From Terramyces sp. JEL0728 (lineage: Eukaryota; Chytridiomycota; Chytridiomycetes; Rhizophydiales; Terramycetaceae), in NCBI GenBank assembly GCA_027603945.1, contig JADIIU010000084.1:1-58553 (forward strand): a DNA stretch of 58,553 bases, given 5' to 3'. The notes under the pieces are model-generated. The model did no database searches, had not been told where the DNA came from, and saw only the letters and a program-made list of their open reading frames with translations. Below are positions 1,610 to 58,270 of the stretch, one piece after another; within the stretch, counting starts at the first letter, position 1, and each line of letters begins with the position of its first letter. A program made the position numbers and the translations under genes.

Positions 1610-2343
1610 ATGGGAGGATGTTGTTCAGCTCCAGAACAAGAAGGAATCCCACTTGAACCTACAAATCACAACCAACTCCCTACCGGTAAATCTAGACTTA
1701 TTAAAGGTTCAAACAAACCGTTGAGACCGTTCCATACTTATGTAAAACCAAGCACAGATGATTACACTGTAATTATGCACAAGAGGGAAACTTTCTGGGA
1801 GACTCAACCTTCCTATTCCGTATCTGTTTTTAATCTCAGGGACGACTAGAAATCTGGCAAACCCTGCGTTTGGCAGCAGAAACTGAACAAATTGAAACTG
1901 CTCAAGCAATAGTAGATTCAGTTAACATGACGTGTCCAACTGGTAGGTTGACTGATGGGCTATACGATACCTACGGCAACCATTATATTATCCCCGATTA
2001 TTGTATTGGAATATTGGAAAATACTGAAAAGTCAATCAAAACGGAACTTAATGACGTTAAAAGCTTAAAGAGCTTTTCAGAGCTCGATCAGATTAATTCA
2101 GAGGATGCATATTCCATCACAGTTAGACTATCGACTGGCAGCGATATTATTGCTACCGTGGATCCGGAAATGAAAATTGCGACATTTAAAGCGCTTGTCG
2201 GGAAATCACTTGGATACGGTGTTTCGGATTTGAAGAAATTGCTGGTGATTCATTTTGGGAAAGTGTTGGAGAATAACACGCAAATTAAAGATACAAAAAT
2301 AGTGGAGAAGAGCGTGGTCCAAGTAATGATTATACAAGTGTAA
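1610..2343 (+). CDS. UBTD: UBTD1/UBTD2-type ubiquitin domain-containing protein
   Basis: Two exons (1610-1819, 1840-2343) joined by the 20-nt intron GTATCTGTTTTTAATCTCAG give 237 residues, close to the 227-234 of animal UBTD proteins. The start MGGCCS is a classic N-myristoylation site and matches the UBTD MGGC start, which is why the longer upstream frame is rejected. The central UBTD domain has FWETQPSY and IWQTLRLAAE followed by AQAIVDSVNMTCPTGRLTDGLYD and GNHYIIPDYC; the C-terminal third is a ubiquitin fold (SITVRLSTGSDI through VEKSVVQVMIIQV). UBTD proteins bind E2 enzymes of the UBE2D family, so it probably adjusts ubiquitin transfer at membranes. The stop lies 14 bp from the convergent Lam-type gene. 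Confidence 0.93.
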
Positions 2344-2357
2344 TATAATAAAATTTA
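2338..2357. terminator. Shared palindromic poly(A) signal between convergent genes
   Basis: The 14-bp gap between the UBTD stop and the Lam-type stop contains AATAAAATTTATT. Read on the plus strand it gives AATAAA, and on the minus strand AATAAAT, so one short element can serve both converging transcripts, whose 3' ends must then overlap inside each other's coding region. The element is seen directly; its use is inferred. Confidence 0.5.
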
Positions 2358-4447
2358 TTATAATTCTGTTTTGGTGTTTATATAAGGTTTATACATAGCT
2401 TCTAATGCAGTGATGCGGGTTTCCAATCGTAGGACGTAGAAAACTCCGATCAAATTAATACAGACAAGAGACAGCATTAGAATTTGGATCACGGTATTTG
2501 CATTGACTGCACGTAATAGATCCAAAATTGATAATTTAGGTAGTTCTACTGCACCTTGGACTGGCGTGCTTGAAATCGGCGCGGAATTGACAATTTTAAC
2601 TGGTGGTCTGGTATTTGTAGACTCTTTTTTTGACGGCGATTGTTTGCTATATGAATCAAGTTCTCTTGCAAGCGTGGTAAATGATTCTTTGACGCCTTTT
2701 GGAACTTCACTGTCTAAAATCACTACAATTAAAAGAAAAATACTTTTAATCCATGTAGATTTCAAGTACTCTACTGTGGAGGTCACAAGCATCCGTGTGG
2801 ATGTTGGTGATTGGTATAACAAACAGATGCGTACTTTGGCTTGGAAGCAGTTACCAGAGGGCACATCTGGGGTCTGGCTTACTGATTCAACGCAAACTTG
2901 GCTAGGTATTAGTTTGAATTACTTTTCAGATTTGTGTAGGACAGTTTCAACCAGATTGCACTTGGTTTGTTTAGGTCCAATTGGATTGCTCAGCGCTATA
3001 ACATACTCTACCCTTCGTTTGTGTCCAATCTGAAGTTCTTTAAAAGTAACGTGCTCCTCAGCTTCTTTGTACTCCTGAATACTATCCAATTGAGTGTCTT
3101 TGTCTACCCAATCTGTAAAAGCAAGTTCTACATTACTACTTAAATACCTTTATACTCCATCTTTTTCCAAAAGTCGTTGCAAAATTCTGAAATCGCAGAT
3201 TGATGGCCATAAACAATTCTCCATAAATCCTCGAGTGTCAATTGGAATATTTCATCAATTGCCGGTTTCTGCTTTTCGTGAATTCCTACACACGAGCACT
3301 CGTACGGTTTCTTTACAACCGCTGTTGGCAATTTAGGGAGAGATGGTTTCGCAGGACTCTTTAACAGCTCTTCTGGTTTTGGGAGAATTACGTGGTGCTG
3401 CTGATGTATTATTTTCGGTTGGTGCTCCGGTTCTGGCTTATCATTTGCTATTTCTGCAAGTCCTTTTCCAGTTTCATTTTCTGATATTGGTGCTACTCCT
3501 CTAAACGTTTCGTTAAATTTAATCTTTATATTGTCTATTGCGCCCATTGAGTTACTTCTCCGGATTGTTGATGATACTGGGTTAGTAAATGGTTACGCCT
3601 GCTAATAGATGAAGCATGTGACAGGGATGGCGACCTGATATTCGTTTCTGAGGTCCGTCTGTTAGAATCTGGTTCCACTTCTGATTGCAATTTGATACAA
3701 TTATCCGGATGGCCTGCAATACTACTGGTAATTAAATCATATGCTTGGTCACGTGTAACAAAACTTGCAAAAAAGTATTTCTTGTCTTTAGTTGATATCT
3801 CGATAGAATTTTGGAATATCGCTGCAATAGTTTTCTTTTCAACTATGGAAAGATCGGCAATTGGAACTACAAGCGAATTTGTCCAAATTACTTTTGAATA
3901 GAAGCAGATGTGATTTTCAGTCACATACAATCTTCCTTGCAGTAATATTAAATCGTTGCGCCACGCACAGCTAAAATCTTCGATAAGCGCATCCAGTTTA
4001 TCTACTTCCGGAAACAATTCATGAAAATCTGTATTTCGTTTTGCCGAAGCGACTTCAGTTGTATATCCTAAATTTAATCAGCCAAATACCTTGAGGTGTG
4101 ACAAATAGCAGTCTATCTTTCTGATCTAGTGCTGGATTTGATCCTGAGAGCCAAGCCAAAGCGCTATCCAGTGGTGTTTTCGGGGTTGTTATTGTCTCTT
4201 CTGGTAGATCTTTTTCCTCAGAGTCTTCACGTTTGGCATTGTCCAAGTTCTTGACTGAGTCTGTATCTTTATTCTTGGAGCCCTTTGATTCAACAACCGA
4301 TTTAAGTCTGCTGTCTATTGAGGATATTCGTTGAGACCTGTCGGGAGTGACATTTATTGGCATCAGAGTCCCATCCTTGTCTAACAATATTGATTCTTGT
4401 ATTGGATCATAAAGAGAATCGAAATCGTGGGTAGGTGTCAAGTCCAT
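2358..4447 (-). CDS. GRAMD1: Lam/GRAMD1 (Aster)-type sterol transfer protein
   Basis: Five exons (4447-4090, 4067-3597, 3576-3148, 3127-2923, 2901-2358) with introns of 22, 20, 20 and 21 nt give 668 residues. After about 120 disordered residues comes a GRAM domain (FHELFPEVDKL, LLQGRLYVTENHICFYSK). A linker leads to a VASt/ASTER lipid-binding domain starting at FQLTLEDLWRIVYG and running through the hallmark DVPSGNCFQAKVRICL to VEYLKSTWIKSIF. One membrane helix near the C-terminus (QILMLSLVCINLIGVFYVL) anchors it in the ER. The family moves sterol between ER and plasma membrane at contact sites. All four joins restore frame. The start at 4447 (MDLTPTHDF) is chosen over ATG 4480, whose codon overlaps the divergent CEP70 start codon. 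Confidence 0.9.
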
Positions 4448-4478
4448 CAAAGATTGTCCTTCAAAAAAGAGCAAAATC

Positions 4479-6515
4479 ATGAATAAACCAATTTCAGACT
4501 CGAGCGGATTATCACCGGCAGGTATCTGAAATTAATAATAGAAGAAAAGGAAGCTGAGGAATATATCGAACACCTATTAAAAGGCACTGGCGCCAGTGTT
4601 AATTACGATTTACTGAAACAGGAACTCAACTCGACACCCTCAAGATCAGTATCAGTGCTGACAAGTGATGTTTCTCCAACTATGCCCACCAAGGACGATA
4701 ATGCGATCAGGAGGGAAAGAAGAAGCATATTACGTTCTGACTCCCCGCAATATGTTTCCACTCCATCGCTATCTGAGAATAATGCGGCTTTAAAGTAATA
4801 TATATTTGATAAAGACCCCTATTGGAAACAAGAAAGGCTGGAACGGATCAGAGATTACTCAGAAACAGAACCCCGCAAGTAAATACTTCAAAAGATGATA
4901 TACCAGAATATTCGAGAAGCTCAACCAATTTGAACAGAAGGAGACCTTCACCAACTAGAGGGGAAATATCCCCTATTAGAGGAGATGCCACCTCTCCCGG
5001 AAGAGAATCGCCAAGAGGACGCACAGAAAATAGAAGCACCACCAGATCGCAAATATTCAGCGCTAACTTGGGTATTCAAATGGACGATTCGCCAAAAGAC
5101 AAAGCATCAACCACATCCTTACAGCTGGAAAAGATTTCGCAAAAGCTGGTTAAATCTGGATTCAATTCCCTTCACCCCTCGCTGCTTTTTACTTCAAAAG
5201 ATAGCTATCATGTCGACGGTACTCTGACCGAAACTCAGGGACTATATTTAATCAGCACTCTCTCAGTACTCGTGAACGAATATGAAAACAGAGGAAATTC
5301 TATCCAGGAACTGATTTCGCAATTGGCTGAACAGCGAAAAAGGAATGATTTGCAACCATCCGAAAGTGATAAGCAAAAACTGTCTGAATATGAAGCAACA
5401 ATCGCAGAGTTGCGAGCAGAAATTCAGAAACGGGATGATTATACAAATCTGGTCCAAACAAGAAACAATGCAATTTTGGAAAATGTCAAATTCAAGTTGG
5501 AGACTAATAATCTTGACCCAAGTGTAGTGAATATTGTCACTGCTTATGAGCAAAAGATTCAAGAATTACAAAAGTCTTCACCAACAAAGGATTTCTTTAA
5601 TGATATTCCAGAACAATCTTTAGATGAAGAAGTAATTGATAGCTAACGTAGAAAATAAAGCAGGACGAGCTCAAACTTTCGATTGAAAAAACTAGAAACG
5701 AACTTGACAAAGTAAGCAAAGAACGAGATTTATTGAAACTGCAACTGCTGAACAATAAGCCACAAAATGGCGAGGTAGATGTCAGTGCATTAGGAACAAG
5801 AGAAAGAATAATCCGGGATAAAAAAAAGTGGAAGGAAAAAGCTGGGAAATTTGAGCATTTGGACTCTCAGGAAAGTAGAGCGACTCTGTTAGAGATATGC
5901 ACCAAATTGGGAATCACCGACTATGAGAATTTATCTGCTTGTGTCGATAGGATAATCGCTGTGGTCAAGCTAGTCCCCCAAATGGAAAAGGTAATATCAG
6001 CATGACAATAGTTTATTAGACAAGTAAATGCAACGGTGCGGGCCTACAACATCAAAGATACTCAGTCGCAAAACACTGACTCAATGAAGCTTGACCAAAC
6101 CGTAGAAATAATGCGAAGTTGGGCCGAAATTGCATCAAATTCAAAGGAAGCAAACAGGTTTATTACGCGTGTGCACGATATCTTGGGTATACCCATATCC
6201 GCAGGTTCTTTTGAGCTGTGCTTGACTTCAATGGCGGCCAGTATTCTCCAAAGGAGCAAATCGCCAGAAGGCATCCAACCGGACTTTTCCCAGCAAGCGC
6301 TCTTAAGATTTATTGATTTGTTTGAAATTAAAAACACAAGTCAGATATTGAACAAGATGAACGAATTGTACATATTCTGGACAGAGGTAAATGCAGGTAA
6401 TTGCTACTTGATTCTAGCGCTACTGAAATTGCAGCAAGTACTTCGTGTTGATAAAGTGCAACCTGGAAGGTTGATTGTTATTGCTTCCGAAATGCTCGAA
6501 AAGAATAAAGCTTAA
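4479..6515 (+). CDS. CEP70: CEP70-like centrosomal coiled-coil protein
   Basis: Six exons (4479-4521, 4542-4794, 4815-5631, 5652-5990, 6012-6396, 6418-6515) with introns of 20, 20, 20, 21 and 21 nt give 644 residues. A basic, Ser/Pro/Arg-rich N-terminal part (about 90-170) precedes coiled coils (about 230-400). The block LVQTRNNAILENVKFKL with AYEQKIQEL and the C-terminal QILNKMNELYIFWTEVNAAL follow the order of human CEP70, including its RMNEVYTRLGEMNNAV region. CEP70 sits at centrosomes and basal bodies and binds gamma-tubulin. The last 21-nt intron leaves the frame open if retained, but removal gives the better family match. Assignment is by remembered similarity and needs a profile search. 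Confidence 0.72.
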
Positions 6516-6611: not shown

Positions 6612-7546
6612 ATGCAGCTCCAAATAATTTGTGTTAACGATCCATCCAAATCAAAACAAATTGAAATAAACGATACGCAGTCTATATCCGACCTCAAACA
6701 ACTCTTGTATGAAAATGAAGCAGAACAACGGTTGATTTACCAAGGCAAATTATTGCAGAACGAAATGATTGTTTCTGAAATAGTGAAAAAGGTACTCTGG
6801 CTCTTACATTAGGATGAAGCATTCGTTCACTTGGTTTTAAGGAAAAGCGATGACGAAATTACCCCGACTAAGGAATCAACTGAACATACTCCAACAGAAG
6901 AGATGCAAGAATCTCGCAGTGGGAGCGAATCGGAAAGTAAACCGGGAATCGACTTGGAAAATTCGTTTACATTATATCCGATTATTCCAAAGTTAATTGT
7001 TGTAGAGTAAAAGTTGTCTAATATAGTGGTACGGTATATGTCATGCATTCTGGAGAGGGCGTCTATCCAAAGCAACCAACAAGCATTACAACATCAACTA
7101 ATCCATATAGATCTCCTGTTCCAATTACGAGGGTCACGGAGGCAGCTGGCCAGCCAATTCATCCTGCCCAACAGGCGCTGCATGCCGAGCCAATCCCCCT
7201 TCTTCAACAGCCAGGGCAAGCGCAATTTGTTCAACCACAGCCTGCTGGAAGACCTATTCGTGTGCAGGTTTTGGAATTATACAATCAGTTTGGCGGTTCT
7301 TTTTGGCTGCTTGTCAAATTATCTGTTGCAGTATGGTTCCTTACTCAAAATACTTCGACATTTAGAACAGTTTTAATCAGCACCATTGCCGTGCTTTTGT
7401 TCCTGTTTCAATCTGGATTGGCCGTGATGCCTGAAATCCAACAGCAACAGCAACAAAACGCACCAGTGACACTATTGGGATTGGTGCTTCATGTAGTGAT
7501 CTCATTCTTCTCCTCTCTGGTCCCAGAAAATATTCCAAACCAGTAA
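6612..7546 (+). CDS. HERPUD: HERP-like ER membrane protein with ubiquitin-like domain
   Basis: Three exons (6612-6791, 6813-7006, 7027-7546) with 21- and 20-nt introns give 297 residues. The N-terminus is a ubiquitin-like fold (LQIICVNDPSKSKQIEI, QSISDLKQLLYENE, RLIYQGKLLQNE). A Ser/Glu-rich linker follows, and two membrane helices lie near residues 215-260 (SFWLLVKLSVAVWFL and TVLISTIAVLLFLFQSG), then a Gln run and an amphipathic tail. This layout (UBL at one end, hairpin membrane anchor at the other) is that of HERP, which links the HRD1 ubiquitin ligase complex to ER-associated degradation. Fungal Dsc-type UBL membrane proteins are an alternative. Its 3' end is 37 bp from the convergent JMJD5 gene. 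Confidence 0.75.
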
Positions 7547-7583: not shown

Positions 7584-8941
7584 TCAGCGGGAGAGATATT
7601 CAGCGTCGTATTTTCCGCTGCTTTTCGTTAAACCCATTTTCGCTCCAAACCAGAATGAAACCGAAAAGGATTTTTCCAGCGAACGCACATAGTGCCAAAA
7701 GTTCCGTGGGATATACAACAATTCACCTTCACCCAATATAGTTTGACAGCATGGGGTGTTTTCAAAGAGCGGGAATTTCTTGAAATCTGGGTTTTGAACA
7801 TCTACTTGAGAGTTTTGGCCAAGATGGCTGTTTATGGGATACAGCCTATCAGATTGAGTGGTATCATATAATCGAATGTATTTACTGCCTACCACTTGTG
7901 CGAGAACATTATGGAAAGGGTCGCTATGCATTGGCGAAACGGTATCAGCTGGGCCGAACCAAGCTGCGACTTGCGGATCCTTACCATCTTTGAAAACACA
8001 GTCACTTGGTCTGTTGTGATCTTCTTTTGTTGTAGCGTTGCAATACGCTGGGATTCGAATGTCGTCCAGCAGTTCCGGTATTTGATCCAACAGAGGATGT
8101 TGTGCCAGGTACCCATGGACCGTAGTATTTTCGACATAAGCTGAAATATACTCATCGAGAGCCATCACCTTGTGGGTCCAAGTAGCACTCAAGAAGGATT
8201 TGCTTGCTTCTTCTTTGGCACATATTTCCACAGGCACAAGTCTTCCACTACCAATTTGCCGCAGGTAGCTAGAATTCTTCCATAACTTGAGTGCCGGCCA
8301 TGCTTCAAGTGCGTGAGTCAAAATAACTGGTTTGGGCGGTTCTTGCTCCATGTACTGCTTGGCAAATTGGGCTTCTGACAATTCCCTTGCATCTACTCTT
8401 GGAATTTCCCTCGCATACTCTTCAGATAGATGCTCACTACCATTAATATGAATTACTTTGGCAATTCAACAATCTTTGAGCTTGCATAATCATCGTCAGA
8501 GTCTGAATAGTCATCATCCAGGTAAATTTCCTTGAATCTGTTGTGCAGCGAGGTTGCCTCTTTAATCAATGGTGCGATAATCGGCCTCCATTCTTGATAA
8601 TCACTACGGAGCATTGCTAAATCCAGACTTCGAAGTGCTGCTGCTGCGTTTTTCGCCATCTTCTTGTTTAGTGAATAAGCTTCGTGCAAGTGCGCCTGAG
8701 CCAAAAAGCAACATGCAGCTACATATGCTGGGTTATGGAGCTGTTCCGTCTCTGGATTTTCTACGTATGGCATTATTGAATTTCTAGCCCCTTTGCTAAT
8801 CCTCAAGATATAGTCTGCCTCCTTTTCCGATTTGAAGACTTTGTTGACAAGCAAGAGTGCAGTCGCTACCTTTTCGTCAAACACCTTTATATCTATTGGC
8901 ATCCGCTCCAAGGCAATCAGCTTTTTCAGTTTCCTCCCCAT
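7584..8941 (-). CDS. KDM8: JMJD5/KDM8-like JmjC dioxygenase
   Basis: Two exons (8941-8457 and 8436-7584) joined across the 20-nt intron GTAATTCATATTAATGGTAG give 445 residues (human JMJD5 is 416). A helical N-terminal domain with an acidic linker (YLDDDYSDSDDDY) leads into the JmjC fold (VILTHALEAWPAL, GYLAQHPLLDQIPEL, AAWFGPADTVSPMHSDPFHN). The iron ligands are visible as H-x-D in MHSDPFH (about residues 332 and 334) and the distal His in NFWHYVRSL (about 410). The KYIRLYDTT strand supplies the 2-oxoglutarate-contacting Lys. JMJD5 enzymes hydroxylate arginine in ribosomal and chromatin-linked proteins. The start MGRKLKK at 8941 is preferred to a longer frame through A/T-rich DNA. Confidence 0.92.
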
Positions 8942-9024: not shown

Positions 9025-9499
9025 TTATTTGTTAAAAAAAGTTCCTTCAGTTGGTTGGGCCAACTTTTTGTTAGCAGGATTAGCCATTTCCCTAAATTAA
9101 CGCGGATTACTTTCTAATTTCTGCCAATACAGTCTCGAGTGTGTAGGATCTCTTCCAGCTATCCAAACATGCAAGTTTTTCTACTTTTCCAGTGCTTTTG
9201 TTCACACATGGAAGATTGATTTTGGAGAGAAAGGATATTGAGGGTGCTTGATCCGGATAGTCAGTTCCGCAGTGAATCTTTAAGGAGTATATTCTGTTTT
9301 CATGAACGGTCTATATTAAAGATGTATACATGTCCTGGACCTATTATAGTCCCATTCCAATTTTGCATCAGGAGATCTTCCCCGTCACTTAAACCGTATG
9401 AAATTGTTCCATCGCCAATTCCCTTTTCTCCCTTTTCAAGCTCTTCTAGTAATCGAAAATTTCTTGGGACTATATTAGCAAACCATAACCCGTTGCCAT
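9025..9499 (-). CDS. UBE2V: Ubiquitin E2 variant Mms2/UBE2V
   Basis: Four exons (9499-9490, 9469-9330, 9310-9111, 9091-9025) with introns of 20, 19 and 19 nt give 138 residues, the size of Mms2. The first exon is only ten bases (ATGGCAACGG). Recognisable segments are [21 protein letters not shown], the strand WNGTIIGPG, the PDQAPSISF turn, and the tail [12 protein letters not shown]. As in all UEVs the active-site Cys of true E2 enzymes is absent: the DSW stretch follows KLACL where the HPN-Cys core would lie. With Ubc13 it builds Lys63-linked chains for post-replication repair. Without the 19-20 nt introns no complete UEV frame exists here, which makes this gene a good test of the intron model. 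Confidence 0.93.
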
Positions 9500-9582: not shown

Positions 9583-11394
9583 TTATGGTTGGCCGCCTTG
9601 GCCAGGTTGAATAACATCATCAATTTTAAGAACCATTTTTACAAGCTGAGTTGCAAGATACAGTTGCGATCTCTTTGACACCAATGGATCAAAGACATAT
9701 TGTTCACGCATATCTGAGATTAAAGATCAATTACCGTTTGTTCCGGTCAAGTTGCAATCAACACCTAAGCGTGGATTAGTGTCTTCAATTTGACGGGATT
9801 TCACCTCAGCAAGTGTTTCAATTGGAGCAAGACCAGAATTTTCAGCAAGAGCAAGAGGGATAGCATCAAGCGCACTGGCAAATGCTCTCATTGCGTATTG
9901 TTCAATGGAAGAAATTTTGTCGGCAGCTGCAGAAACAGCTAATGAACAAGTAATTTCAGCGGCACCTCCACCATAAACAATACGGTTGTCACGAATCAAG
10001 TTACGGACTACACAGATCGCATCATGTAAAGATCGCTTTGCTTCGTCGATAATCTAACGTAAGAATGAATTACCATCTTGTTTCCACCGCGGATAAACAG
10101 AGTAACAGCACGAGTATTGGAGCATTCTTCGATTACCAACATACGATCTTTGGTAGTTCCAAATGAAACTTCGCGGACGATACCAGCATGGCCAAGCTTG
10201 TCTGCAGATAGCTCAGCAAATCTTGGAACGATTCGCCCGTTGGTAGCGATAGCAATTAACTAGGTTAGTAAAGAGTTACTTCAATTTCTGGTCCGCCGAC
10301 CCATCTAACAGCTGGTAACTGTCTTTGCATAAGCAAATGGTTAGCTTCATCATCGAAACCCCATTGACAGATAACCAGGTTTGCTCCAGAATCCTTGACT
10401 TGGCTAACCATTTCTTCGAATTTATCTTTTTCGTATTGTTGCAATTTTCTGTATTCTTCAACAGATCCAATATCTAACTGATGCTTGGTTTTTGGCTTTG
10501 GTGGTTCAAATGGACAGGTCAAAATCGCAATCTTTGCATCTTTAACTTCTCTTGGCATTTGCGGGTGTGAAAAGTCCTTGTCAACAACAACACCGTAAAC
10601 CAACTTGGAATCTACTAATGATCCACCAACTTTTCCATCGATTTTGATCAATTCAAAATCAACATCTTTTCTGTCCATATCAGCAACTGCAAGAACGGCA
10701 TCTACTGCCATCTTTGAAAATTGATCATGACACTTGTTTACACTATCGTTAATCTGCTATTTAAGTAGATCTGTTCCAAGATCTACAATTACATACATTT
10801 TAGATCCTAAACAAGTCTTGGCAGTGCGTAATAAAACGTCCTTGTCATTAGCAATATCAATAGTGTCGGCAATAGATTCAAGATGGGCAACTGCAACACC
10901 GCAAGCTCTTTCAAAGCCATCTGAGATTCTAATAGGGTGGATTCCTTTATCTAGTAGTTTTTCAGCTTGTTCCAACAAAGCTCCAGCCAATACTAGCGTA
11001 AGCATAGATCTTACCAACAACACCAGTGGTGCCATCGCCAATTTCTTCATCTTGACTTCTAGATAATTGTACTAGCAATTTTGCAATTTGGTGTTCAACT
11101 TCCATTTGGCTTAAAATGGTTGCACCGTCGTTGGTGACAGTAATATCACCATCAGGTGAAATTAAGATCTTATCAAGACCTACATTAACAATCGGCAACC
11201 TCTTGGCCCAAGAGAAGTCTTTAGGATGGTTGAGACTGCCTTTGCTGCTAAAATGTGGGACTTTATCAATAAATAAATACCTTTTGTGCCTCTAATCCCT
11301 TGATTCTAGTCTTTTGCTGATCTCTGACAATAATAAATGGACGACCATATTCATCCTGGGCATACACTGCGTTTCCTGGATCGATTCCTTGCAT
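9583..11394 (-). CDS. CCT5: CCT5 (TCP-1 epsilon) chaperonin subunit
   Basis: Eight exons give 544 residues (human CCT5 has 541). Introns lie at 11261-11280, 11180-11199, 10993-11014, 10743-10796, 10260-10279, 10054-10073 and 9714-9734 (20, 20, 22, 54, 20, 20 and 21 nt). Group II chaperonin motifs are present: [24 protein letters not shown], the ATPase loop GDGTTGVV, and GGGAAEI near the C-terminus. The epsilon signature [12 protein letters not shown] and [20 protein letters not shown] identifies the subunit. CCT folds actin and tubulin in the cytosol. The 54-nt intron is the longest seen in the window and carries a perfect hairpin. The ATG at 11394 gives QDEYGRPF, the expected N-terminus. Confidence 0.96.
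10765..10786. promoter_or_regulatory. Perfect hairpin inside the 54-nt CCT5 intron
   Basis: Within the CCT5 intron at 10743-10796 the 8-bp arms GTAGATCT and AGATCTAC flank a 6-base loop. Folding them would bring the donor and the branch/acceptor region closer together, shortening the effective intron by about 22 nt. The arms are seen directly; any role in splicing is inferred. Confidence 0.5.
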
Positions 11395-11550: not shown

Positions 11551-12617
11551 CTAGAAAGTAATTTCTTGATCCAAACGATCCGGGATAAACAGCTCGTATT
11601 CAGAATGCTTACATCTAAATGAGAATTGAGGTATATGTCCTCTTGCGAATAGCAGTTTCGGAGAATCTAGGTTAGAAGCCATGAATACATTCGCCGGGAC
11701 CAGGCGTGGGAGGACAGCTTTCTCTCTTCCTTCCGGGTGCGGCATTGTCCTCTCCCTTTGCTTTCTTTTGCACAGAAATATCGTCTTTCACCAGTCTTGC
11801 ACCCAAAGAGTAAGCCGGGGCAGCATTTTTTATTTTTGATGGGTTCATAGGACTATATGCTGCCGGACCAGGTGAAATGTGCTCCACTACCATCAATATG
11901 TCAATTACGCTTCATTGCTCTTTGTGGTTTAATGGAATAAGCTGCAGCAGTTGGAACTGTTACCATCGGATGCATACCTAGAGTTGCATTAATTTCGTCA
12001 AAGGTAAAAAATGGATTACATTGTGCCGGGCCTGGATATTCGTTTAATTTTTCAGCTTTGCGTCTTGGAGATATTGAATATGCTGGTGCTCTTGGTTCTT
12101 TTGATGGAATGTACTTTGGATAATAGTTGCCAGGGCCTGAAATTAAACATGGAGCACCTGGAGTATCTTTTTCGGCAGATTTACTTTGTGATTCTTTCTC
12201 TTTTTTACCCTTGCTCGTTTCAACATGTAAAAAATCAATCTACCTGTTTTTCTAAACCCGCCTTTCAGCGAAAACGCAGGCCCTTTTGACAATCCTGTCC
12301 GGGTGGTCTGAGGAAAGAATTTGTTTGGACCTGGCGTTTTTTCTTTATAAATTATTTACATACCCGGTCTATCGTGTTGTATTTTTATCCCAAACGAATA
12401 TGCTGGAGCTCTGATCCCCTTTGTTTTTGCTTTAAACCCTATAGTTCTATAATTATATTTTATCCTACGGTGGTAAACTGTAAGCAGCCGGTCCTGGACC
12501 TATAATCAGTATAGTCGAACCTTTTGCTCTCGCAGCAATTGGTATTTCTGGTTTCGCTGTCAGAGATATTTTCCCTGGCAATTTTGGTAACTCCCTTTCT
12601 TCAGTTTGGGAACTCAT
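11551..12617 (-). CDS. ODF3: ODF3/CIMAP-type sperm-tail PG-repeat (SHIPPO) protein
   Basis: Eight exons carry repeated P-G-P motifs: KGPGPAAYSLPP, KTPGPNKFFP, DTPGPGNYYP, EYPGPAQCNP, ISPGPAAYSP and TPGPGEYSP, alternating with APAYSFG/APAYSLG segments, and end in FRCKHSEYELFIPD, like the ODF3 tail. Introns are at 12500-12520, 12447-12468, 12343-12363, an ambiguous one near 12214-12257, 12137-12157, 11887-11908 and 11667-11688. The product is about 297-305 residues depending on the ambiguous join. SHIPPO-repeat proteins lie in or along axonemal microtubules, so this supports a flagellated stage. The start MSSQTEERE at 12617 is chosen; an in-frame ATG at 12689 is possible. Confidence 0.88.
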
Positions 12618-15557: not shown

Positions 15558-15621
15558 AGCTTTGCAGATAATCCTTGTTTGTTTATCATTTCCAATAAAC
15601 AAATTGAAATTTACGAATTAC

Positions 15622-23515: not shown

Positions 23516-23638
23516 TCTCATCCGTCTGACCTTTGAACAAAGCAAACAAATCTTTCGCCTTTTACTAAAGATTTCTGTGGTTGAGGGTTACAAAGACGTT
23601 TTCCCAATTTTTGTAGTACTTTCTTTCGAAAGAAGGAA
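23516..23638 (+). ncRNA. U5 spliceosomal snRNA
   Basis: The invariant U5 loop 1 region is present: ATCTTTCGCCTTTTACTAAA then GATTTCTGTGG, matching the U5 consensus with the loop CGCCUUUUACU that aligns exon ends. The basal stem is supported by CGTCT (23523-23527) pairing with AGACG (23594-23598). Downstream is an Sm-binding site (CCAATTTTTGT, about 23603-23613) and then a short 3' hairpin (CTTTCTTT-CG-AAAGAAG). The element order stem-loop, Sm site, hairpin is that of U5. Ends are approximate, set from the TATA-like element upstream and the last hairpin. It works in the U4/U6.U5 tri-snRNP, holding the two exons during both steps of splicing. Confidence 0.92.
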
Positions 23639-23870: not shown

Positions 23871-23920
23871 TATTTCAAATATATTAGATTAATGGATGCC
23901 TAAATGTTTTGCAAACCCAT

Positions 23921-47428: not shown

Positions 47429-48004
47429 ATGCAGTACCATCTTTTCAAAACGACGCCAGAAAATAAACCAGAGAAGCAGAAAATCTTGGGATCTGATGAT
47501 TTGATTTCGAAATTTGATATCCTTCCACTATACGATTCATATGTTCGAGATATACATCACGATAACGATTACAGGAAATATACCAAGGATGTTGCAGGTT
47601 TTTGGATTTTTACAAGTAGGAAAGCATGATTATACTCCGGATCACATGCTGGGAGAATTGGTTTTTGGACCCCCTAAAGGAGATGTCGAACCTGCTAGGT
47701 TCGAGCCGAGCGTTCTGCAGCAGTCATTCACACTTATACCTGGACAAGTTGCAGTTAATCAAAGTTGATATTTAGGTTGATAAAAGCCAGTATGGGTTTG
47801 ATAATGACTCAGATGTGGAAACCAACACTCCTGAAAAGGAAAAGTTTATCATCAAATTAGGTACAAATTGGATTAACACCAGATTTGAAACGGAGAGATA
47901 GTGGCCAAGTGAAGATAAAGGTACAAGGCAATTCTTAAATCAAGAGCAAACGAAAGAGAGAGGACGACATTGATGGAAATATTTCCAAAGTAATTGTTGA
48001 ATAA
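47429..48004 (+). CDS. MED19: MED19-like Mediator head subunit
   Basis: Five exons with introns 47598-47616, 47754-47775, 47861-47882 and 47921-47944 (19, 22, 22, 24 nt) give 162 residues. The MED19 core is seen as SKFDILPLYDSYVRDI, YTKDVAVGKHDYTPDHMLGE, LVFGPPKGDVEP and SFTLIPGQ; only splicing joins KDVA to VGKHD. The C-terminus is short and very basic (DLKRRDSGQVKIKSKRKRED), as in animal MED19. Mediator's head module passes activator signals to RNA polymerase II. The assignment rests on the order of short motifs, so a profile search is advisable. The 24-nt intron is one of the few above 22. Confidence 0.7.
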
Positions 48005-48077
48005 CCAAGAAAGTGAAAGAAATTGGTGTTGAAAATTAATTGTCAAAATAATGTAATATATTAATCTCCATACACAA

Positions 48078-49722
48078 TCAGCGTCCCAATTTCGTGAGCA
48101 TCGAATCCAGTTTTTCGATTTCACTATGCAGGACAATCTCTTTGAAATCTTTCAGGTCCGGCTCCAGTTGCATAGCTTTCTTTGGCTGGTTTCTGTAGCC
48201 CTTTAGTATATCTACATCGAGCACATCAAAGTTTAATTATTATTACCTGGCGGGTTTATCAGGGATATAAGGGGGCCTAATGTGATCCTTCCATGATTGC
48301 GTGTTTTGCATGGAGCGCTCTTCAGCCTTGGTATTTTGCTTTCTAATTTTGGCTTATTCTGTTTGACGCAAGAATATGGTCTTGGCTTGCTAAGGGAAAT
48401 GTTTTCCAAAATGATATTTCGAGATTTTCTTTCATCTGTACTTGGTCTTGGCTGATCAGCTATTGGTCCGTCGTGTATAAATTGGATATTTTTATGGCTG
48501 GGCTCTGTAGCTATAAATCGACATGTGTTTTCTTTTTTTGTTGAGGCACATTTCGTCCGTCCTTTAGAATGGCCATCTCTGGACGAAAATAAGCTACTGT
48601 TCGAATGGATGTTGTCACTAGAGAACATGGTCGACCCACTGAATAGTTTTCTTGCACTATTATCTGTCATTGACTTGTACGAAGGAGCTGACTTGATTGA
48701 TCTTTTGCTTCCAAATTCGTCTCCTAATTTTTGCATTGAATGTCCATGACTTTTCAAACTTTTTGAAGATTTTGTCTTGCTGAAATTACTTTGGAGTTTC
48801 ACTTCATATATTTCCAAAGCGTGATACTCGGGCATAGATGTACTTAGATAATCAGATTTTCTACACTTGTACGCAGATGCTGCCCGGCTAGACCGATCCA
48901 TTATTCCTCCAGAAGGCTCTGTTTTAACTGCGCAGCTTTTTCCGTTTGAGTCTGCGAAATAGTTTTTTTTGGGCATTTCTTTTATAATTTCTACAACTGG
49001 TTGGACAGCTTCTGGCGATCTTGCTCTTGCCGATCTAATTCTAGCTGCTCTCTCGTTTTTTCTCATGTACACCTCTGCAATTCTATTCGATGCTCTGGAT
49101 GCCGACCTTGAAGATTTAGTCCAGTCCCCAGTAACATAGGGTAGTTCGTTCTTTTCTTCTTCAACGACTATATTGCCGACATTTTTCATTGGGAGTTGGA
49201 TATTTATGGGCGAGACATCAATGAAATAAAGTTTTTGTGTGCTTGAATCCTCAGATGAACTATCCATGTCATTATTTATTCCAACCACTGAGAGTACGTC
49301 CTCCAGAACACTCTTTGGCCTGCTAGTTGGTGTTGTTGCTCTAGAATATATCTTGAAAGACGCACTTGGCTTCAGTGCCTTTTCCAAATCCTCTCTCCTT
49401 GTATCCCACTCCTGAGGACGGATATCGTGCCTTCTACTTTCCAGAAATTGCTCAGCTGGAGGTGCGTAATGATTTGTAATGATTGGAGAAGCTGGTTTTT
49501 CTACTTTTTTAATACGATTCTCTTTTCTCCTCACATTAGTTGCATTTAGTATTTCCATTCTAGATTAACTACCGCGTACTCTCTCCGTTTCCTGGTTTCG
49601 CTCGCAAATACTTCTGCTGCCTGATGAATAGTGTCTGGAGACAAATGTTTGACTCTAACTGGTTTACTGAACCATTCTCGGTTATGGCTAGAGTTAATTT
49701 TAAAGTACGAAAAGAAGGACAT
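48078..49722 (-). CDS. Unknown basic, mostly disordered protein
   Basis: Four exons (49722-49709, 49687-49580, 49559-48247, then a last exon) with 21- and 20-nt introns and a third, ambiguous one. The product is 522 or 527 residues. It starts MSFFSHNREWFSKPVRVKHL, has a conserved-looking block HYAPPAEQFLESRRHDIRPQ, then long Ser/Arg/Lys-rich stretches (WTKSSRSASRASNRIAEVYM, AARIRSARARSPEA), and ends in a helix (LKDFKEIVLHSEIEKLDSML). No family recognised. Basic disordered proteins with short helices are often microtubule- or RNA-bound, which is only a guess. The first two joins were found because the upstream frame ends exactly at a 20-nt intron. Confidence 0.65.
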
Positions 49723-52759: not shown

Positions 52760-53286
52760 ATGAATTTTGCAAGTGATGAACTTGGTGCCTTAACTTCATT
52801 GCTAGCACCTCCAACAGAAACTCGAAAAAACCAAGAACAGTTTACTCCTGGGGCGATCGGTCCGGAAAAGAAACATGCTGTTGTCCCAAAAGCAAAAGAT
52901 TCTAAACATATTTGGGACGAAGATGACGAGCTCCCCGCTGAAGCTTTCGATCCTAGAGAGGAGCCAGAGTAAATCTTGTTAATTGTAGATATGAGCTGAA
53001 ATATGTTCAAAAAGTATCAAGCGAAGACATGTATTTGGGAATGAGCGGTCGCACGCCTTCTATTGGACACTCGGACAACTTGTTGATCTCTGTCAAACTT
53101 CCAAACACTGCTTTCAAGGATATTTCAATCTCAATCACTAAAACTGTGCTTGAAGTAATGACGCCGTTCAAAAAGTTGAAGCTGTTCTTTCCTAAACCTG
53201 TACAAGACGAGAAGGGGACTGCAAAGTGGGAAGCCGACACTAAGCTACTAAAGATCAATGTTCCATTGGAGCCTCCAATGTTTTAA
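52760..53286 (+). CDS. DNAAF6: DNAAF6 (PIH1D3/TWISTER) axonemal dynein assembly factor
   Basis: Two exons with one 20-nt intron (52971-52990) give 168 residues. The N-terminal part has ELGALTSLLAPP and IWDEDDELPAEA, then, across the intron, PEYELKYVQKVSSEDMYLGM; the C-terminal half is a CS/alpha-crystallin-like fold (LLISVKLPNTAFKDISISI, LEVMTPFKKLKLFFP, KWEADTKLLKINVPLE). This is the whole PIH1D3 layout. It works with Hsp90/R2TP to pre-assemble dynein arms in the cytoplasm, so the organism builds a motile flagellum. ATG 52760 follows the member D stop by only 20 bp. The intron removes a TAA that would end the frame at EEPE. Confidence 0.92.
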
Positions 53287-53335: not shown

Positions 53336-55440
53336 ATGCAAGAAAATGGAAAAAGACTTGCACTCCAAATCAAAGTAATTTCAATTAATAGCAGAGAGCT
53401 TCAATCGCTGATTCAGGAAAAGAGAATAAACCGTGATCGCATCCTCGAATTATGCGAAGATATTATTTTGCTGGATGCGGGATATGCAGTCCATAAAAGG
53501 ATTGACGAGATGTTGTGGAATACTTACTTTTATACGAGATTTGAAGAGCTGAAATTAGATTTTAAAAGGTGCAAAGGTGAGGCAGTGTTATTGCAGTTAC
53601 AAAGCGAGTTGGATCGTGCAAATAGCTTTTACAAAGTGCTTGTTTTGGCCTTGACGTTTGACAGGGATATCGATAATGTCGCTGGCGATCCGGCGCTAAT
53701 CATTGCCTACAAATCTTTAATTTATCTGGGTGATATTGGTAGGCTTGATTTAATTTAGCCCGGTACAGAACGTCGTACATTTCCCCCATAAAGACATGGA
53801 CAGAGTCTTGGAATTGGTACGAGAAAGCATACAAATTATATCCAGTTGGCGGGAAGCCCCATGCTCAGTTAGCTTTACTTTCAGTATACAAAATGATTGA
53901 TATTGATGTGCTCTACTACAACTGTTTGAGCATTGGCAACAAGGAGACAAGCCCGGTGCAGAGAAATAACCTCGATCACTTTTTGCTCAAATTCACGATG
54001 AATGGACTTTCAACGCCAGTAGAAAGCGAGTGAGTAGTTGTTAACTTAGAAACTTTAATTACTTTATTGACTGCTCAATTACCTTCTTTGGGTTTCTTTA
54101 TAAAACCAGCTCTGTTGGCACAGATTTATTGCTAGAGTATTTAGCTGTTCTTGACGGGAATATCAAAATGTTGAAATTCCAAGATATGGGCAGAATATTG
54201 AAGCTCGTAACTAGTTTTGTGATATTTGTTCATGACAGAGATGTGCTCTTTGACTCGAGCAGTAAATGATAACTAACAAGATCAATCGATGGAGAAACAA
54301 TTGTTCCGACATTACCAAGTGCTAGCATTGTCATTCCTACTCTCGATGACCAAGGAATGCGCTTTGTATGTAAATTCACAGTTAGAAAGCGGCGACACCA
54401 TTGAAGAATTGGCATCAACTGTCGTTGATCATTTGCTCCCTCTCAGCGTACTTGTTACATGGCTTTCAAGTACTACAAGGATTATCACTACGTTCACTTC
54501 CTATGGTGCTATGCTCCGACCCAAAGAATTTGAAAATGTAATCCAGTTTTAAAATAGAAACTCCACGATTGGGCAAATACAATTGTAATGATTGTAAACA
54601 AAGTAGCGTCATTTGCAGATATGGATGGAGGAGATGATATAATGTATGCAGATTCATTATTGGTATCGCTGTTGGCATTTAACTCTTGTTTCGATAGCCG
54701 CATGAAGCCTTTGAACTCCAAGGTTGATTGTACAATTACTATATTTTCTCGTATGGCAGGCTTTGTGAAAAAATTAAGTGAAGATAAAGTACAGCCTGAT
54801 TAATTTAGAAAATCAACTTTATCGTATTCAATTCAGAGGAAGGCCAATATGTAGTAAGAGACAGCTCTACCAAACGCAAAGAATTGCAAAAATTAATGAA
54901 AGCACTTGCTACAGAAAAATTAAAAGATGAAGTTAAAACTCTAGAGCAGCAACAAGGAAACTTTAGAGATCTTGACTTGCCTGTATATGTGCTGGACTTG
55001 AATTGCTTTCTTAATATTATGCGCCAAATTAAATCCTGGCTGATGTCAAAATCTTGCATCGTAATTGTTCCGTTTGATGGTAGTTAATATTAACAATAGT
55101 CATCCAAAGTTTAGATTCACTCAAAAATGGTACTGAAAAAATCAACGCAAGGGCAAGAGATGCTATTAGATATCTTGAGCAGCGGCTTCGATATCCATCC
55201 ATTCATTTAATTGGACAAAAACCAGAGGAAGAGTGTCAAATTAACGAGGGTGTATTTGTACCCCAAACCTACAAAAATCTATTTCAGTGCTGCCAGTATT
55301 TCAAAATGAAGTCGGATGAAAGGCCGATTGGAGAGTTTGCTCTGGTTACGGATAATCTCGAACTGAAGCTGCTTGCAAAAGATTTACATTTCCCAGTCGT
55401 AGATATACACAGTTGGAAGCCAAATTCAAGAAGACTGTGA
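53336..55440 (+). CDS. SMG5: SMG5/EST1-family protein with C-terminal PIN domain
   Basis: Seven exons with introns 53739-53758, 54030-54049, 54262-54280, 54538-54557, 54789-54808 and 55080-55099 (20, 20, 19, 20, 20, 20 nt) give 661 residues. The N-terminal 14-3-3/TPR part has NWYEKAYKLYPVGGKPHAQL and DVLYYNCLSIGNKETSPVQ. The C-terminal PIN domain reads LPVYVLDLNCFLNIMRQ, ARARDAIRYLEQRLR and FALVTDNLELKLLAKD. SMG5-7 proteins bind phosphorylated UPF1 in nonsense-mediated decay. The first PIN Asp (VLDLNC) and the late Asp (VTDN) are kept, but the middle acidic pair of SMG6 is replaced by TYKNLFQCC, so nuclease activity is doubtful, as in SMG5. Confidence 0.82.
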
Positions 55441-55566
55441 AAGTGTTTGTAAACACATTTATACAGTAATAAAGCGGCGATTACTAATTTAAATCTAGTA
55501 GGTTTTAGAATTGAGTCGCAGTATTTTGGTTGATAAATTTCCAGGTAACATTCTTGTTAATATTTA

Positions 55567-56870
55567 TTATTTTAATGAGGTGAGCACGCTAGAGTACAAT
55601 TCGTCATTCAGTCTTCGTAGCTGTGCGTTGTGGCTCTTTAATTGAGAAATCTGTGCCTTTAAATCAGCAATTTCATCTTCCCCTTGATCCACTTCAATTG
55701 GAGCAAAGTATTCTTCAGCAACTTTCTCGAATGGCTCCATGAATCCATCTTTAAAGCCAAAGGTGTATGGCATATCAATATCGGCGTTTGGATATCTTGA
55801 AAACTGCGATATTTTCAAATCTTTTGGTGCTAATGCTTGCTCTATTAATTCTGGCGGCTGGAGGATGACTGCACAAGTTGTCATTGGGGTTTTCTTTACA
55901 AAGGATTTTATGCTTTGCCGACTACCTATATCCCAGACTTGGCACGTTCCGTCTTCAGAAGCACTAACTAGTAAGGATTCATCCATTGAAAAGCAAAGTT
56001 GGTGGATTTGATCACTACGATTAGCAAATTCATACGTGTGTTTTTCAAATTTCAAAAACTCTGTATCTTGCAGATCTGCCACGGTGCTGAAATTTTGTGC
56101 TGTCTGTTCGCTATAAAGGTTTGATTGGTAGATTGCGCCATCAATGGTTCCACAGAACACTGCAGTTTCAGTTGAATTGACCACCACAGACGTCAAGGAG
56201 CGTGGAAATACAATGGCGCCGATATTTTCTCCAGTAATTTCCCATATTTTGCATGATCTATCCATTGAGCATGAATATATTCTAGCATGCTCATAAGGCA
56301 ATATTGAAACGGCTATGCTTGTGATTGGCAGAGAATGTCCAGATAAACTTATACTCGATGGTATACTATCTTGTGGAAACGTCAAATCTAACAAATGGTT
56401 GAATGACCAAACAAGAATCTGTGAATCTTTACCGCCTGTAATCAATCGCATATCATCCATCGTAAACTTGATACACGTGATAGCCTTGTAATGAGCATCA
56501 AACATCCTAATCATTCTGCCAGTTTGAATCTAGATTAACATGTATTTACCTCCCAGATATAAATACGACCAGATTCACCACCGCCAACACAAAAATCTCC
56601 AGTATTTGAAATTTCCAGTGCAGACAGCTTTTCAGGGATAATGAACTTGAATGCCGATGGTGATTTTGAAAACTGATAGACATTAATTGTGCCTTTATCC
56701 AATTGCGGAGTAAAAAAAGAACTTGCTCGTAACCAGAACGACTTTCTTATTGCTACAGAATTGCTGAGATTGGCTTTATATGACGCAACTAACACCCCAG
56801 TCCGAATATCCCACAAATGAATAACGTTTTCCTTGCTGGAACATGTAATTGCAACTTCAATATTGTTCAT
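55567..56870 (-). CDS. WDR18: WDR18/Ipi3, Rix1-complex WD40 protein
   Basis: Two exons joined by the 20-nt intron GTAAATACATGTTAATCTAG (56534-56515) give 427 residues (human WDR18 has 432). Repeats include VIHLWDIRTGVLVASYKA, RIYIWEIQTGRMIRMFDAHY, LITGGKDSQILVWSFNHLLD, CSMDRSCKIWEI and VSASEDGTCQVWDIGSRQSI. The C-terminal tail (DLKAQISQLKSHNAQLRRLNDEL) is the coiled coil by which Ipi3 pairs within the Rix1 complex. That complex removes ITS2 from 27S pre-rRNA and readies pre-60S particles for export. ATG 56870 is chosen since the longer frame begins in the divergent MoaE promoter. Confidence 0.9.
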
Positions 56871-56887
56871 CAAAAAAAATAAAAAAT
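56871..56887. promoter_or_regulatory. 17-bp bidirectional start region (WDR18 / MOCS2B)
   Basis: The two divergent ATG codons, at 56870 (minus) and 56888 (plus), are separated by 17 bp of nearly pure A with one C and two T on the plus strand. Transcription must start within the opposite gene's coding region or at the ATG itself with an almost leaderless mRNA. The spacing is read directly; start choice is supported by both families' N-termini. Confidence 0.6.
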
Positions 56888-57343
56888 ATGCGAGCAAAAA
56901 TTGAAATTACAAAAAGCGAAATTCCCATTCAAGAAAATATCAGGGAATTTAGCAACCATAGCGTAGGTGCAATTGTGTCCTTCCTTGGCACAACCAGGTC
57001 TACTTTTACAGACGAGAATGGAACCACCAAACAAGTGGAATATTTATCATATGAAGCTTATGAACCAATGGCAATAAAAGTAATGACTGAAATCGCACAC
57101 GAATCAAAGCTGAAATACAGAGATTTGGACAGAGTAGGAATTATACATAGGCTGGGAAAAGTAGGAATTGCTCAAGAATCTATTTTGGTAGTGACAGCTT
57201 CTGCTCATAGAAAAGACGCAATCGATGCAGTTGGATGGATAATGGATCAAGTCAAAAAACGAGTTCCAATATGGAAATTAGAAGTTTATACCGATGGTTC
57301 AAGCTGGAAAGAAAACAAGGAATGGAGAGACAGGAATCTGTGA
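56888..57343 (+). CDS. MOCS2B: Molybdopterin synthase large subunit (MoaE/MOCS2B)
   Basis: A single exon of 151 residues, the normal MoaE size. Motifs: GAIVSFLGTTRS, VEYLSYEAYEPMAIKVM, RVGIIHRLGKVGIAQESILV, ASAHRKDAIDAVGWIMDQVK and the C-terminal KKRVPIWKLEVYTDGSSWKE, which holds the active-site Lys and the pocket for the MoaD C-terminus. With MOCS2A it adds two sulphurs to precursor Z, making molybdopterin for sulfite oxidase and related enzymes. ATG 56888 fits the family N-terminus (RAKIEITKSEI). The stop is 10 bp from the convergent RNF113 gene. Confidence 0.95.
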   Translation: MRAKIEITKSEIPIQENIREFSNHSVGAIVSFLGTTRSTFTDENGTTKQVEYLSYEAYEPMAIKVMTEIAHESKLKYRDLDRVGIIHRLGKVGIAQESILVVTASAHRKDAIDAVGWIMDQVKKRVPIWKLEVYTDGSSWKENKEWRDRNL

Positions 57344-57353
57344 TAAATTTACT

Positions 57354-58270
57354 TTATTCTTCTTCTTCAAGTTGCTTTTGAATCTCGAGTTCTTTTTCCC
57401 TCATCCGTTTCTTCTTTGCATCCAATTTACCAACTAAATCCTTGGCAACGTTGAAAACACCCTGTGTATTTTGATTACATGCAAAGCAGCCAGGAGTCTT
57501 TTTGAATTGCTTGATTGCGCATGCTTCACAAAAGTAGTGTTTGCATTTTGTGATTATGGGAGATTTGAAATCACCACGACATATCAGACAAGCGAACGGT
57601 AAATCGTCATCGCTTTCTACTTCATCTTGAACATTGACAAAGAATCTGTTTGGATCATTTTCCTCTGCTTTCTTTCTTTGCATCTACATTAACACAAAGT
57701 TACCTCTTCCCATTCTTTATCCAGTTCCCATCCCATCTTGTAATCCCCCCTATCATGCATAAATACACAGCCATCGCCAAACCCACAAAAACCAGTTTCC
57801 TTGTAATCTTTGCAAATCGCAGGTGCATAGTCAAATCTACATGATATTCTTACATTGGTCTGCCCTTTCAACGGCCCGGCTCTTATTCCACCAGCATTCT
57901 TTTGTGTTATTTTTTCTTTTTTCTTGTTAATGTATTCCTTGTAGTTATCCTTTCCTGTATATAAATTATCGAGTTTTTCAGCCTGATCCCCTGATGCAAT
58001 TTCCCCTTCTGCACCGTCAACATCCAGGGTGCGAGTAGCAGAATTATTGCTTAATTCGACTGCCGTCCCTGAAGATTTAAAAGTAACCCCAAGAGCAGTC
58101 ATGTTGTCATCAATGTGAATATCGGTCCTTTCTTCCTGTGTTTTTCCTGATTTCCTTTTCTTTAACTGTGAAGCAGAAACAATTCTAGAATCGACCTCCT
58201 GTTCATCATCCGAAGCTTGTCTCTTGCGGAATACCTTTTTCTTTGCTGATTTCTTGAACTCTGTTTCCAT
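57354..58270 (-). CDS. RNF113A: RNF113/Cwc24 spliceosomal CCCH + RING protein
   Basis: Two exons joined by the 20-nt intron GTAACTTTGTGTTAATGTAG (57710-57691) give 298 residues. The N-terminal part is basic and disordered ([15 protein letters not shown]). A CCCH zinc finger follows: [20 protein letters not shown], then [15 protein letters not shown]. The RING finger is [35 protein letters not shown]. Cwc24/RNF113A enters the activated (Bact) spliceosome and contacts the 5' splice site-U6 region. Its presence with U5 in a genome of about 20-nt introns makes it of interest for how so short an intron is held. ATG 58270 is used; the longer frame from 58315 has no match. Confidence 0.94.

Follow-up and report, generated by a model that had tools for sequence, protein, structure and literature searches.

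Probable spliceosomal introns of about 20 nucleotides in the nuclear genome of a chytrid fungus

How does a machine as large as the spliceosome grip an intron of only some 20 nucleotides (nts)? The question is raised by a 58,553-nt stretch of the chytrid fungus Terramyces sp. JEL0728 (Terramycetaceae, Rhizophydiales, Chytridiomycota), contig JADIIU010000084.1, analysed at its full length and referred to below as the window, for which an earlier note had proposed spliceosomal introns of nearly uniform length. Judged from genomic DNA and protein comparison, these are very probably ordinary U2-type introns that have shrunk to 19–22 nts across the chytrid nuclear genome and are removed by the spliceosome. 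They start with GT, carry a YTAAY-like branch motif whose branch A lies mostly at position 14–15 behind a sharp left edge, and end mostly in TAG or CAG after a tail of 5–6 nts. The assembly comprises 15,016,339 bases in 231 contigs. An open exon of its Prp8 gene shares 98% identity with the Boothiomyces sp. JEL0866 protein, the next relatives being Entophlyctis (86%), Batrachochytrium (85%), and Basidiobolus and Gorgonomyces (84%).

The length peak emerges from reading frames alone. Genome-wide counts were made on the window together with twenty 10-kb pieces of other contigs (258.5 kb on 21 contigs, 1.7% of the assembly), using a two-strand gene model trained for codon-pair statistics on 39,854 codons of long open frames. 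When any GT..AG segment of 10–120 nts was admitted as an intron under a flat cost and length prior, with no motif supplied, the model called 102 introns, 47 of which measured 18–22 nts (2, 15, 24, 4, and 2, respectively), with a pile-up at 19–20 nts. Lowering the intron penalty left the shape of this distribution unchanged. Six decoy pairs of ends, run identically, put 5/86, 3/78, 7/90, 3/74, 3/80, and 2/88 of their calls in the same range and produced no peak; GT..AG ends thus stand above chance. Donor, branch, and acceptor weights learned from the peak, applied under a flat prior of 12–80 nts, raised the yield to 430 introns, 343 of them at 18–22 nts (5, 80, 157, 74, and 27). A mirrored version of the motif gave 20 of 357 in that range and an antisense version 27 of 226, which, set against the 343, suggests some 6–8% false calls within the peak. 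Raw counts of GTA..YAG segments taken without reading frames rise weakly, with 59 at 19 nts and 72 at 20 nts against 30–60 elsewhere.

Individual calls were weighed by forbidding each intron in turn and scoring the loss in nats. In the peak, the loss exceeds 3 nats for 209 of 343 introns and 5 nats for 129, compared with 9 and 2 of the 73 introns outside 16–25 nts; 129 of the 132 introns that cost more than 5 nats are 18–22 nts long. Within the window, 42 of 85 introns of 18–22 nts exceed 3 nats, and single calls are accordingly not all certain. With the prior extended to 200 nts, 33 calls outside 18–23 nts were scored singly, of which five lose at least 3 nats (best, 7.4). The final set, obtained with a peaked prior, holds 446 introns in 166 gene models at a density of about 2 per kb of coding DNA; 402 measure 19–22 nts, 425 measure 15–25 nts, and the other 21 are longer, at 35–79 nts. 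Simple scaling to 15 Mb gives about 26,000 introns. The window itself contains 100 introns under the flat prior (85 at 19–22 nts) and 103, in 37 gene models, under the final one (96 at 19–22 nts). The earlier note had counted about 87, half of them of 20 nts, about 15 of 19 nts, and about 23 of 21–22 nts. Its classes of 20 nts (47 here) and 19 nts (15 here) agree well with ours, and only the 21–22-nt class differs much, at 34 (23 and 11). The few outliers it allowed for number seven, at 24, 25, 35, 44, 45, 51, and 54 nts, and both of its quoted examples were recovered, GTATCTGTTTTTAATCTCAG as an exact match at 1820-1839 (+) and GTAACTCTTTACTAACCTAG at 10260-10279 (-).

The anatomy of these introns is equally regular. 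In the motif run the donor is mostly GTAA or GTAC; the branch reads YTAAY in 220 of 350 introns, and its A lies 5–6 nts from the last G in 310 of 350, close to the 4–6 nts estimated before, and at position 14–15 in 302 of 350. The 3′ ends are TAG in 277, CAG in 90, AAG in 45, and GAG in 6 (n = 418). Congruent with this, a branch motif is recognisable in 108 of the 113 motif-free introns of 17–24 nts, and its A occupies position 14 in 46 of the 108, 15 in 41, 16 in seven, and 13 in none; it falls at 18–19 in three and at 7–12 in eleven, the latter probably misplaced. The tail beyond the branch A measures 5 nts in 54 and 6 nts in 33 of the same introns. Loop and tail together account for the common lengths: 19 is 14 + 5, 20 is 15 + 5 or 14 + 6, and 21 is 15 + 6. 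In the final set the joint counts of the core combinations stand near independence (observed/expected 70/65.6, 66/54.0, 95/78.0, and 59/64.2). The intron middle is T-rich (39.5%, compared to 28.4% in coding DNA) and little conserved, and a gap of only 2–3 nts separates the branch motif from the AG.

Homology brings further evidence. The genes concerned in the window are listed with their strand and their introns (length in parentheses).

9583..11394 (-): CCT5 (TCP-1 epsilon), from the gene model and motif-free spliced alignment; introns 11261-11280 (20), 11180-11199 (20), 10993-11014 (22), 10743-10796 (54), 10260-10279 (20), 10054-10073 (20), 9714-9734 (21)
16808..23176 (-): ATR kinase; introns 23140-23158 (19), 22803-22823 (21), 18588-18607 (20), 17649-17667 (19), 17504-17523 (20)
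31587..35050 (-): BK-type potassium channel; introns 34835-34854 (20), 34679-34698 (20), 34224-34244 (21), 33790-33809 (20), 33587-33606 (20), 33493-33512 (20), 32213-32231 (19)
36045..36916 (+): mitochondrial carrier; intron 36661-36680 (20)
57354..58270 (-): CCCH and RING protein, which we take to be Cwc24/RNF113-like; intron 57684-57703 (20)

Removal of the tiny introns restores conserved proteins, among them CCT5, Prp8, and U2AF65. Spliced alignment of protein to DNA, again with any GT..AG of 10–120 nts allowed and no motif, recovered exactly the seven modelled introns of CCT5 (20, 20, 22, 54, 20, 20, and 21 nts) from a CCT5 chain of the PDB, presumably the human one, with 524 residues matched and all seven junctions free of gaps. 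Prp8, aligned to the Gorgonomyces protein over 2315 residues, has six introns of 20, 19, 22, 21, 21, and 21 nts, and its joined exons encode 2329 residues without a stop; the Boothiomyces protein returns the same six, and that of Entophlyctis the first five together with a 12-nt variant at the sixth. Decoy ends also span these six gaps, at lengths scattered over 11–105 nts and scores 192–725 lower; AG..GT, whose positions are displaced only slightly from the true ends, yields 20, 19, 25, 30, 21, and 54. In ATR, intron 17649-17667 was found with all four homologues and 17504-17523 with two, the other two shifting it to 20 and 26 nts. U2AF65 rises from 251.7 bits unspliced, below the family cut-off of 310.3, to 324.5 once four introns of 19–20 nts are removed; the mitochondrial carrier, with two repeats detectable unspliced, gains its third through removal of the 20-nt intron, and the CCCH and RING protein, of which only CCCH was detected unspliced, has both domains joined after splicing.

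The deposited annotation of Terramyces already implies some of these introns. A deposited protein of the same strain matches the spliced channel protein at 97% identity and differs by a 31-residue gap. Aligned to the window, the deposited protein reproduces five of the seven modelled introns at identical coordinates, as does the Boothiomyces JEL0838 protein, and the two together cover all seven. At the remaining two sites the deposited protein implies introns of 41 and 89 nts and loses 31 residues, which are present in Boothiomyces JEL0838 and Globomyces JEL0801 and mostly absent from a second Globomyces protein (P0244). Tiny introns are therefore already in the database, in models that contain errors. 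In the deposited Prp8 of the sister strain JEL0866, seven additional residues, LSFTNCR, occupy the position of intron 1. They can be read as a retained 21-nt form, deduced from the codons, of the Terramyces 20-nt intron GTTGATTTTACTAACTGTAG, which suggests, from the proteins by which these relatives are known, that tiny introns are shared within the family. The Prp8 of Entophlyctis luteolus (P0122) has about 20 inserted residues near its C end that resemble an ordinary, unspliced intron of about 60 nts, a hint from the protein that this species has normal introns.

Two further observations concern the channel. At 34497-34517 (-), seven codons (GNCFLTI) that are absent from the aligned relatives include GAAATTGCTTTTTGACAATAG, which resembles a 21-nt intron except that GA replaces GT. 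This may be an intron of the GA-AG kind, or one that lost its donor and turned coding, as a length divisible by three would permit. A Boothiomyces protein (P0247) carries channel domains under the name "erg10, acetyl-CoA C-acetyltransferase", likely through name transfer or a fused gene model.

Length also varies between near-identical copies in this genome. Kinase matches recur at constant offsets within contigs C18, C3, C26, C42, C44, and C199/C111, and the three pairs compared (C199/C111, C44, and C18) are about 99% identical, as duplicated or haplotype blocks. Between C199 and C111, a one-base difference inside each of two introns yields 21- and 20-nt forms of each; the other indels of this pair are a single base in a model-called exon and three outside genes. 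The other two pairs show no indel in an intron and one 11-base indel in a stretch labelled exon. Natural length variation thus rests on only two events.

Much of the machinery that such introns call for is present. A U5 spliceosomal RNA gene with a normal score lies inside the window:

23521..23635 (+): U5 spliceosomal RNA gene, Rfam RF00020, 85.9 bits against a cut-off of 40

In the assembly, U2 small nuclear RNA (snRNA) scores 140 bits and has the normal branch-pairing stretch GUAGUA. Prp8, at 2329 residues, shows one single-residue insertion and 33 changes, many conservative, at positions where 97% or more of 113 homologues agree. U2AF65 and SF1 (66 bits) are both present, the former being of interest because only 2–3 nts remain between branch motif and AG. 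With GT..AG ends, a branch motif that can pair with U2, these five components, and a fungal host, the proposal of U2-type spliceosomal introns in a fungus is supported.

Could the same pattern have arisen otherwise? It is very improbable that the real introns are longer and the 20-nt pieces mere frame repairs by the gene finder. The gene models are computed, 21 of their introns reach 35–79 nts, and at one place in the channel the deposited protein calls for 41 and 89 nts; yet decoy ends yield no peak, conserved residues of CCT5 and Prp8 flank the introns in motif-free alignments, and the longer channel solution forfeits residues that Boothiomyces JEL0838 and Globomyces JEL0801 retain. Narrow lengths and precise excision, taken alone, would also fit segments removed as DNA in the manner of the internal eliminated sequences of ciliates. 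Such elements in Paramecium have TA repeats at their ends, however, and here the ends are GT..AG, the branch motif matches U2, the spliceosomal components U2, U5, Prp8, U2AF65, and SF1 are present, and no somatic nucleus is known in fungi; this reading is next to inconceivable. Near-uniform length could likewise betray introns that spread as ready-made 20-nt elements, similar to introners, and weakly similar pairs do exceed all 50 column shuffles: 114 pairs differ at four or fewer positions (shuffle mean 77, maximum 107) and 435 at five or fewer (shuffle maximum 387). Among the 16,471 pairs formed by 182 introns of 20 nts, though, none is identical and one shows a single mismatch, and the intron middle is little conserved, which makes such an origin highly unlikely.

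More serious thought is due to the possibility that the introns are spliceosomal and that selection, rather than a floor combined with deletion, keeps their length tight, for example because a retained intron shifts the frame. The modal 20 nts always does so, and the window encodes an EST1-type protein with a PIN domain, a protein type linked to nonsense-mediated decay. Against this, 100 of the 446 introns measure 21 nts, a common length, and an in-frame stop occurs in 62 of them, much as in 187 of the 302 introns of 19, 20, and 22 nts; stop-free introns of 3n length are thus not visibly avoided, with the proviso that 21-nt introns lacking a stop escape detection more easily and that some of those called may be false. 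A motif scan for stop-free 21-nt introns hidden within exons found no excess at that length (score above 6: four sense, 17 antisense), partly because the gene models had already taken such introns. Selection on length is, all told, unlikely to be the explanation.

Several observations weigh against the view that these are ordinary U2-type introns shrunk to a narrow range, or against its details. The introns are known here from genomic DNA and protein comparison, and a motif learned from the peak could favour the peak, an objection that the motif-free runs answer in part. U1 snRNA was not found in the genome, one pattern search included, nor was U6 snRNA by Rfam or four core patterns. Two Rfam matches to U6 at 27 bits, under the cut-off of 44, fall in an intron-containing gene for a membrane protein and are coding DNA; one U6 pattern, at two mismatches, gave five matches, the best of which, the sole one inspected, looks like coding DNA. 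Possible reasons are a gap in the assembly, a divergent U6 sequence, or a U6 gene that is itself interrupted. Prp8 has no striking change, which leaves a compact-assembly step without a visible cause. Loop and tail lengths correlate negatively in a wider set (r = -0.405, n = 333), at odds with two independent spacings; we tentatively put this down to misplaced branch points and the length cut. Finally, the 54-nt CCT5 intron, which costs 0.6 nats when forbidden under the extended prior, is supported by homology, and the machine is therefore not limited to 20 nts.

How, then, might introns of this size be spliced and held at their length? A conventional major spliceosome would remove them through a lariat with a loop of 14–15 nts and a tail of 5–6 nts, and length would be set, perhaps, by these two short spacings rather than by the total. 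A floor at 14 nts would correspond roughly to U6 pairing with the 5′ splice site (6 nts) and U2 pairing with the branch (about 8 nts) placed end to end, and deletions would have driven almost every intron down to it. A physical floor, with deletions pressing on it from above, fits the abrupt start at 14 and the gentler slope to the right; we hold this account slightly more probable than its negation, and the cited section on mikrocytids proposes a similar one (PMC10245619). The 14–15-nt spacing suggests that donor and branch are bound almost in contact. In the human B complex, by the cited passages, the donor and branch helices lie 15 nm apart, a distance that takes at least about 52 intron nts to span, and short introns are aided by Smu1 and RED (PMC6692369). 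Set beside that requirement, 14–15 nts would call either for a compact assembly or for two sites held in turn. The long introns may offer a further clue: the 54-nt CCT5 intron (10743-10796) holds a predicted 8-bp hairpin, and two other plausible long introns (L028 2767 and L012 4814) are predicted to fold as well, the second weakly, which for about three introns (54, 53, and 45 nts) is only a lead. One might tentatively, at somewhat less than even confidence, combine these strands as follows: nearly all introns sit at a hard physical floor of a 14–15-nt loop and a 5–6-nt tail, a standard spliceosome with ordinary Prp8 and retained U2AF65 assembles on them with donor and branch helices end to end or occupied in turn, unlike the geometry of the human B complex, and the rare longer introns may fold their excess into a hairpin.

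The other gene models of the window that carry introns, of which several are doubtful, are as follows.

456..698 (+): weak, doubtful gene model; one weak intron 640-690 (51)
1610..2343 (+): gene model; introns 1686-1706 (21), 1820-1839 (20)
2358..4447 (-): gene model; introns 4068-4089 (22), 3577-3596 (20), 3128-3147 (20), 2902-2922 (21), 2723-2743 (21)
4479..6474 (+): gene model; introns 4522-4541 (20), 4795-4814 (20), 5632-5651 (20), 5991-6011 (21), 6397-6417 (21), 6438-6456 (19)
6612..7546 (+): gene model; introns 6792-6812 (21), 7007-7026 (20)
7584..8941 (-): cupin/JmjC-like gene model; intron 8437-8456 (20)
9025..9499 (-): gene model; introns 9470-9489 (20), 9311-9329 (19), 9092-9110 (19)
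11551..12617 (-): gene model, from the model only; introns 12500-12520 (21), 12447-12468 (22), 12343-12363 (21), 12200-12243 (44), 12137-12157 (21), 11957-11977 (21), 11887-11908 (22), 11667-11688 (22)
12783..14244 (+): TRM5/TYW2-type methyltransferase; introns 13027-13046 (20), 13221-13241 (21), 13307-13327 (21), 13572-13592 (21), 13935-13956 (22), 14064-14085 (22)
14292..16794 (+): gene model, probably two fused genes; three weak introns 14988-15008 (21), 15085-15105 (21), 15500-15524 (25), doubtful, both long frames being open without them
26400..29122 (+): gene model; introns 27172-27191 (20), 27645-27664 (20), 27885-27904 (20), 28037-28056 (20), 28731-28751 (21)
29201..30139 (-): ribosomal protein L3 type; introns 29721-29739 (19), 29528-29547 (20)
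36947..37989 (-): gene model, presumably an LST8-like WD protein; introns 37853-37872 (20), 37784-37803 (20), 37601-37620 (20), 37350-37368 (19), 37066-37084 (19)
39538..42266 (-): gene model; introns 41917-41936 (20), 41798-41818 (21), 41654-41673 (20), 41484-41502 (19), 41367-41388 (22), 41218-41237 (20), 40970-40989 (20), 40655-40674 (20), 40479-40498 (20), 39669-39689 (21)
43637..45665 (+): gene model; introns 43837-43855, 44082-44100, 44907-44925, 45398-45416 (19 each)
47429..48039 (+): weak, doubtful gene model; introns 47598-47619 (22), 47754-47775 (22), 47861-47882 (22), 47921-47944 (24), 47990-48009 (20)
48078..49722 (-): gene model; introns 49688-49708 (21), 49560-49579 (20), 48212-48246 (35, weak)
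52760..53286 (+): gene model; intron 52969-52988 (20)
53346..55440 (+): EST1-type protein with PIN domain, which we take to be of the SMG5/SMG6 kind; introns 53375-53394, 53739-53758, 54030-54049 (20 each), 54262-54280 (19), 54538-54557, 54789-54808, 55080-55099 (20 each)
55495..56870 (-): WD-repeat protein; introns 56530-56549 (20), 56015-56035 (21), 55553-55597 (45, weak)

Directly past the U5 gene, at 23700-23880, a unit of about 43 bases is repeated in tandem, to the eye some three times, and two tRNA-Leu (TAG) genes follow. Four long open frames at 14292-16794, 50134-51450, and 51498-52739 appear by eye to be related multi-pass membrane proteins; a Pfam scan of two of the four returned no match.

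The yardsticks named in the earlier note, 18–21 nts in chlorarachniophyte nucleomorphs (PMC6461891) and 15–16 nts in heterotrichs (PMC9505925), are correct, and mikrocytids, with introns of 16–17 nts, are a comparator it lacked (PMC10245619). The nucleomorph of Bigelowiella natans, with 865 introns at about 3 per kb, has nearly the same length range as Terramyces, is likewise dense, and has an archetypical U6 pairing site (PMC6461891). It is, however, a relict nucleus of 373 kb whose U1 and U5 have shrunk and in which, according to the section cited, no 5′ splice-site motif can be identified; the Terramyces genome is fungal, measures 15 Mb, has U5 and U2 of normal score, and prefers GTAA at the donor. 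The heterotrich Stentor shares GT..AG ends, a 5-nt tail past the branch A, and conserved U2 and Prp8, whereas its branch A lies at 10–11 and is described there as lacking a strong consensus (PMC9505925). Mikrocytos mackini matches Terramyces in its tight length range and conserved sequence, yet is a parasite with a reduced spliceosome and 224 introns (PMC10245619). Paramecium (20–33 nts) and Nyctotherus (21–29 nts) also have tiny introns as a rule but, on the cited account, avoid stop-free introns of 3n length, of which Terramyces gives no sign (PMC2633312). Other fungi agree in having U2-type GT..AG introns; those of Cryptococcus neoformans, called relatively short, average 63 bp in the passage cited (PMC8476143). 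Among the papers listed in searches of an open-access library, none described introns of about 20 nts in a fungus. The finding is a real and unusual one, a known phenomenon in a new lineage, the Fungi.

For annotation, protein sets of the family may hold more retained-intron inserts like that in the Prp8 of JEL0866. The published tiny-intron systems that were found are ciliates, one parasite group, and relict algal nuclei; with a chytrid added, Fungi too would reach the lower limit of splicing. Spliceosome biochemistry is strong in Fungi, and a chytrid with thousands of 20-nt introns would allow one to ask how U1/U6 and U2 share 14–15 nts.

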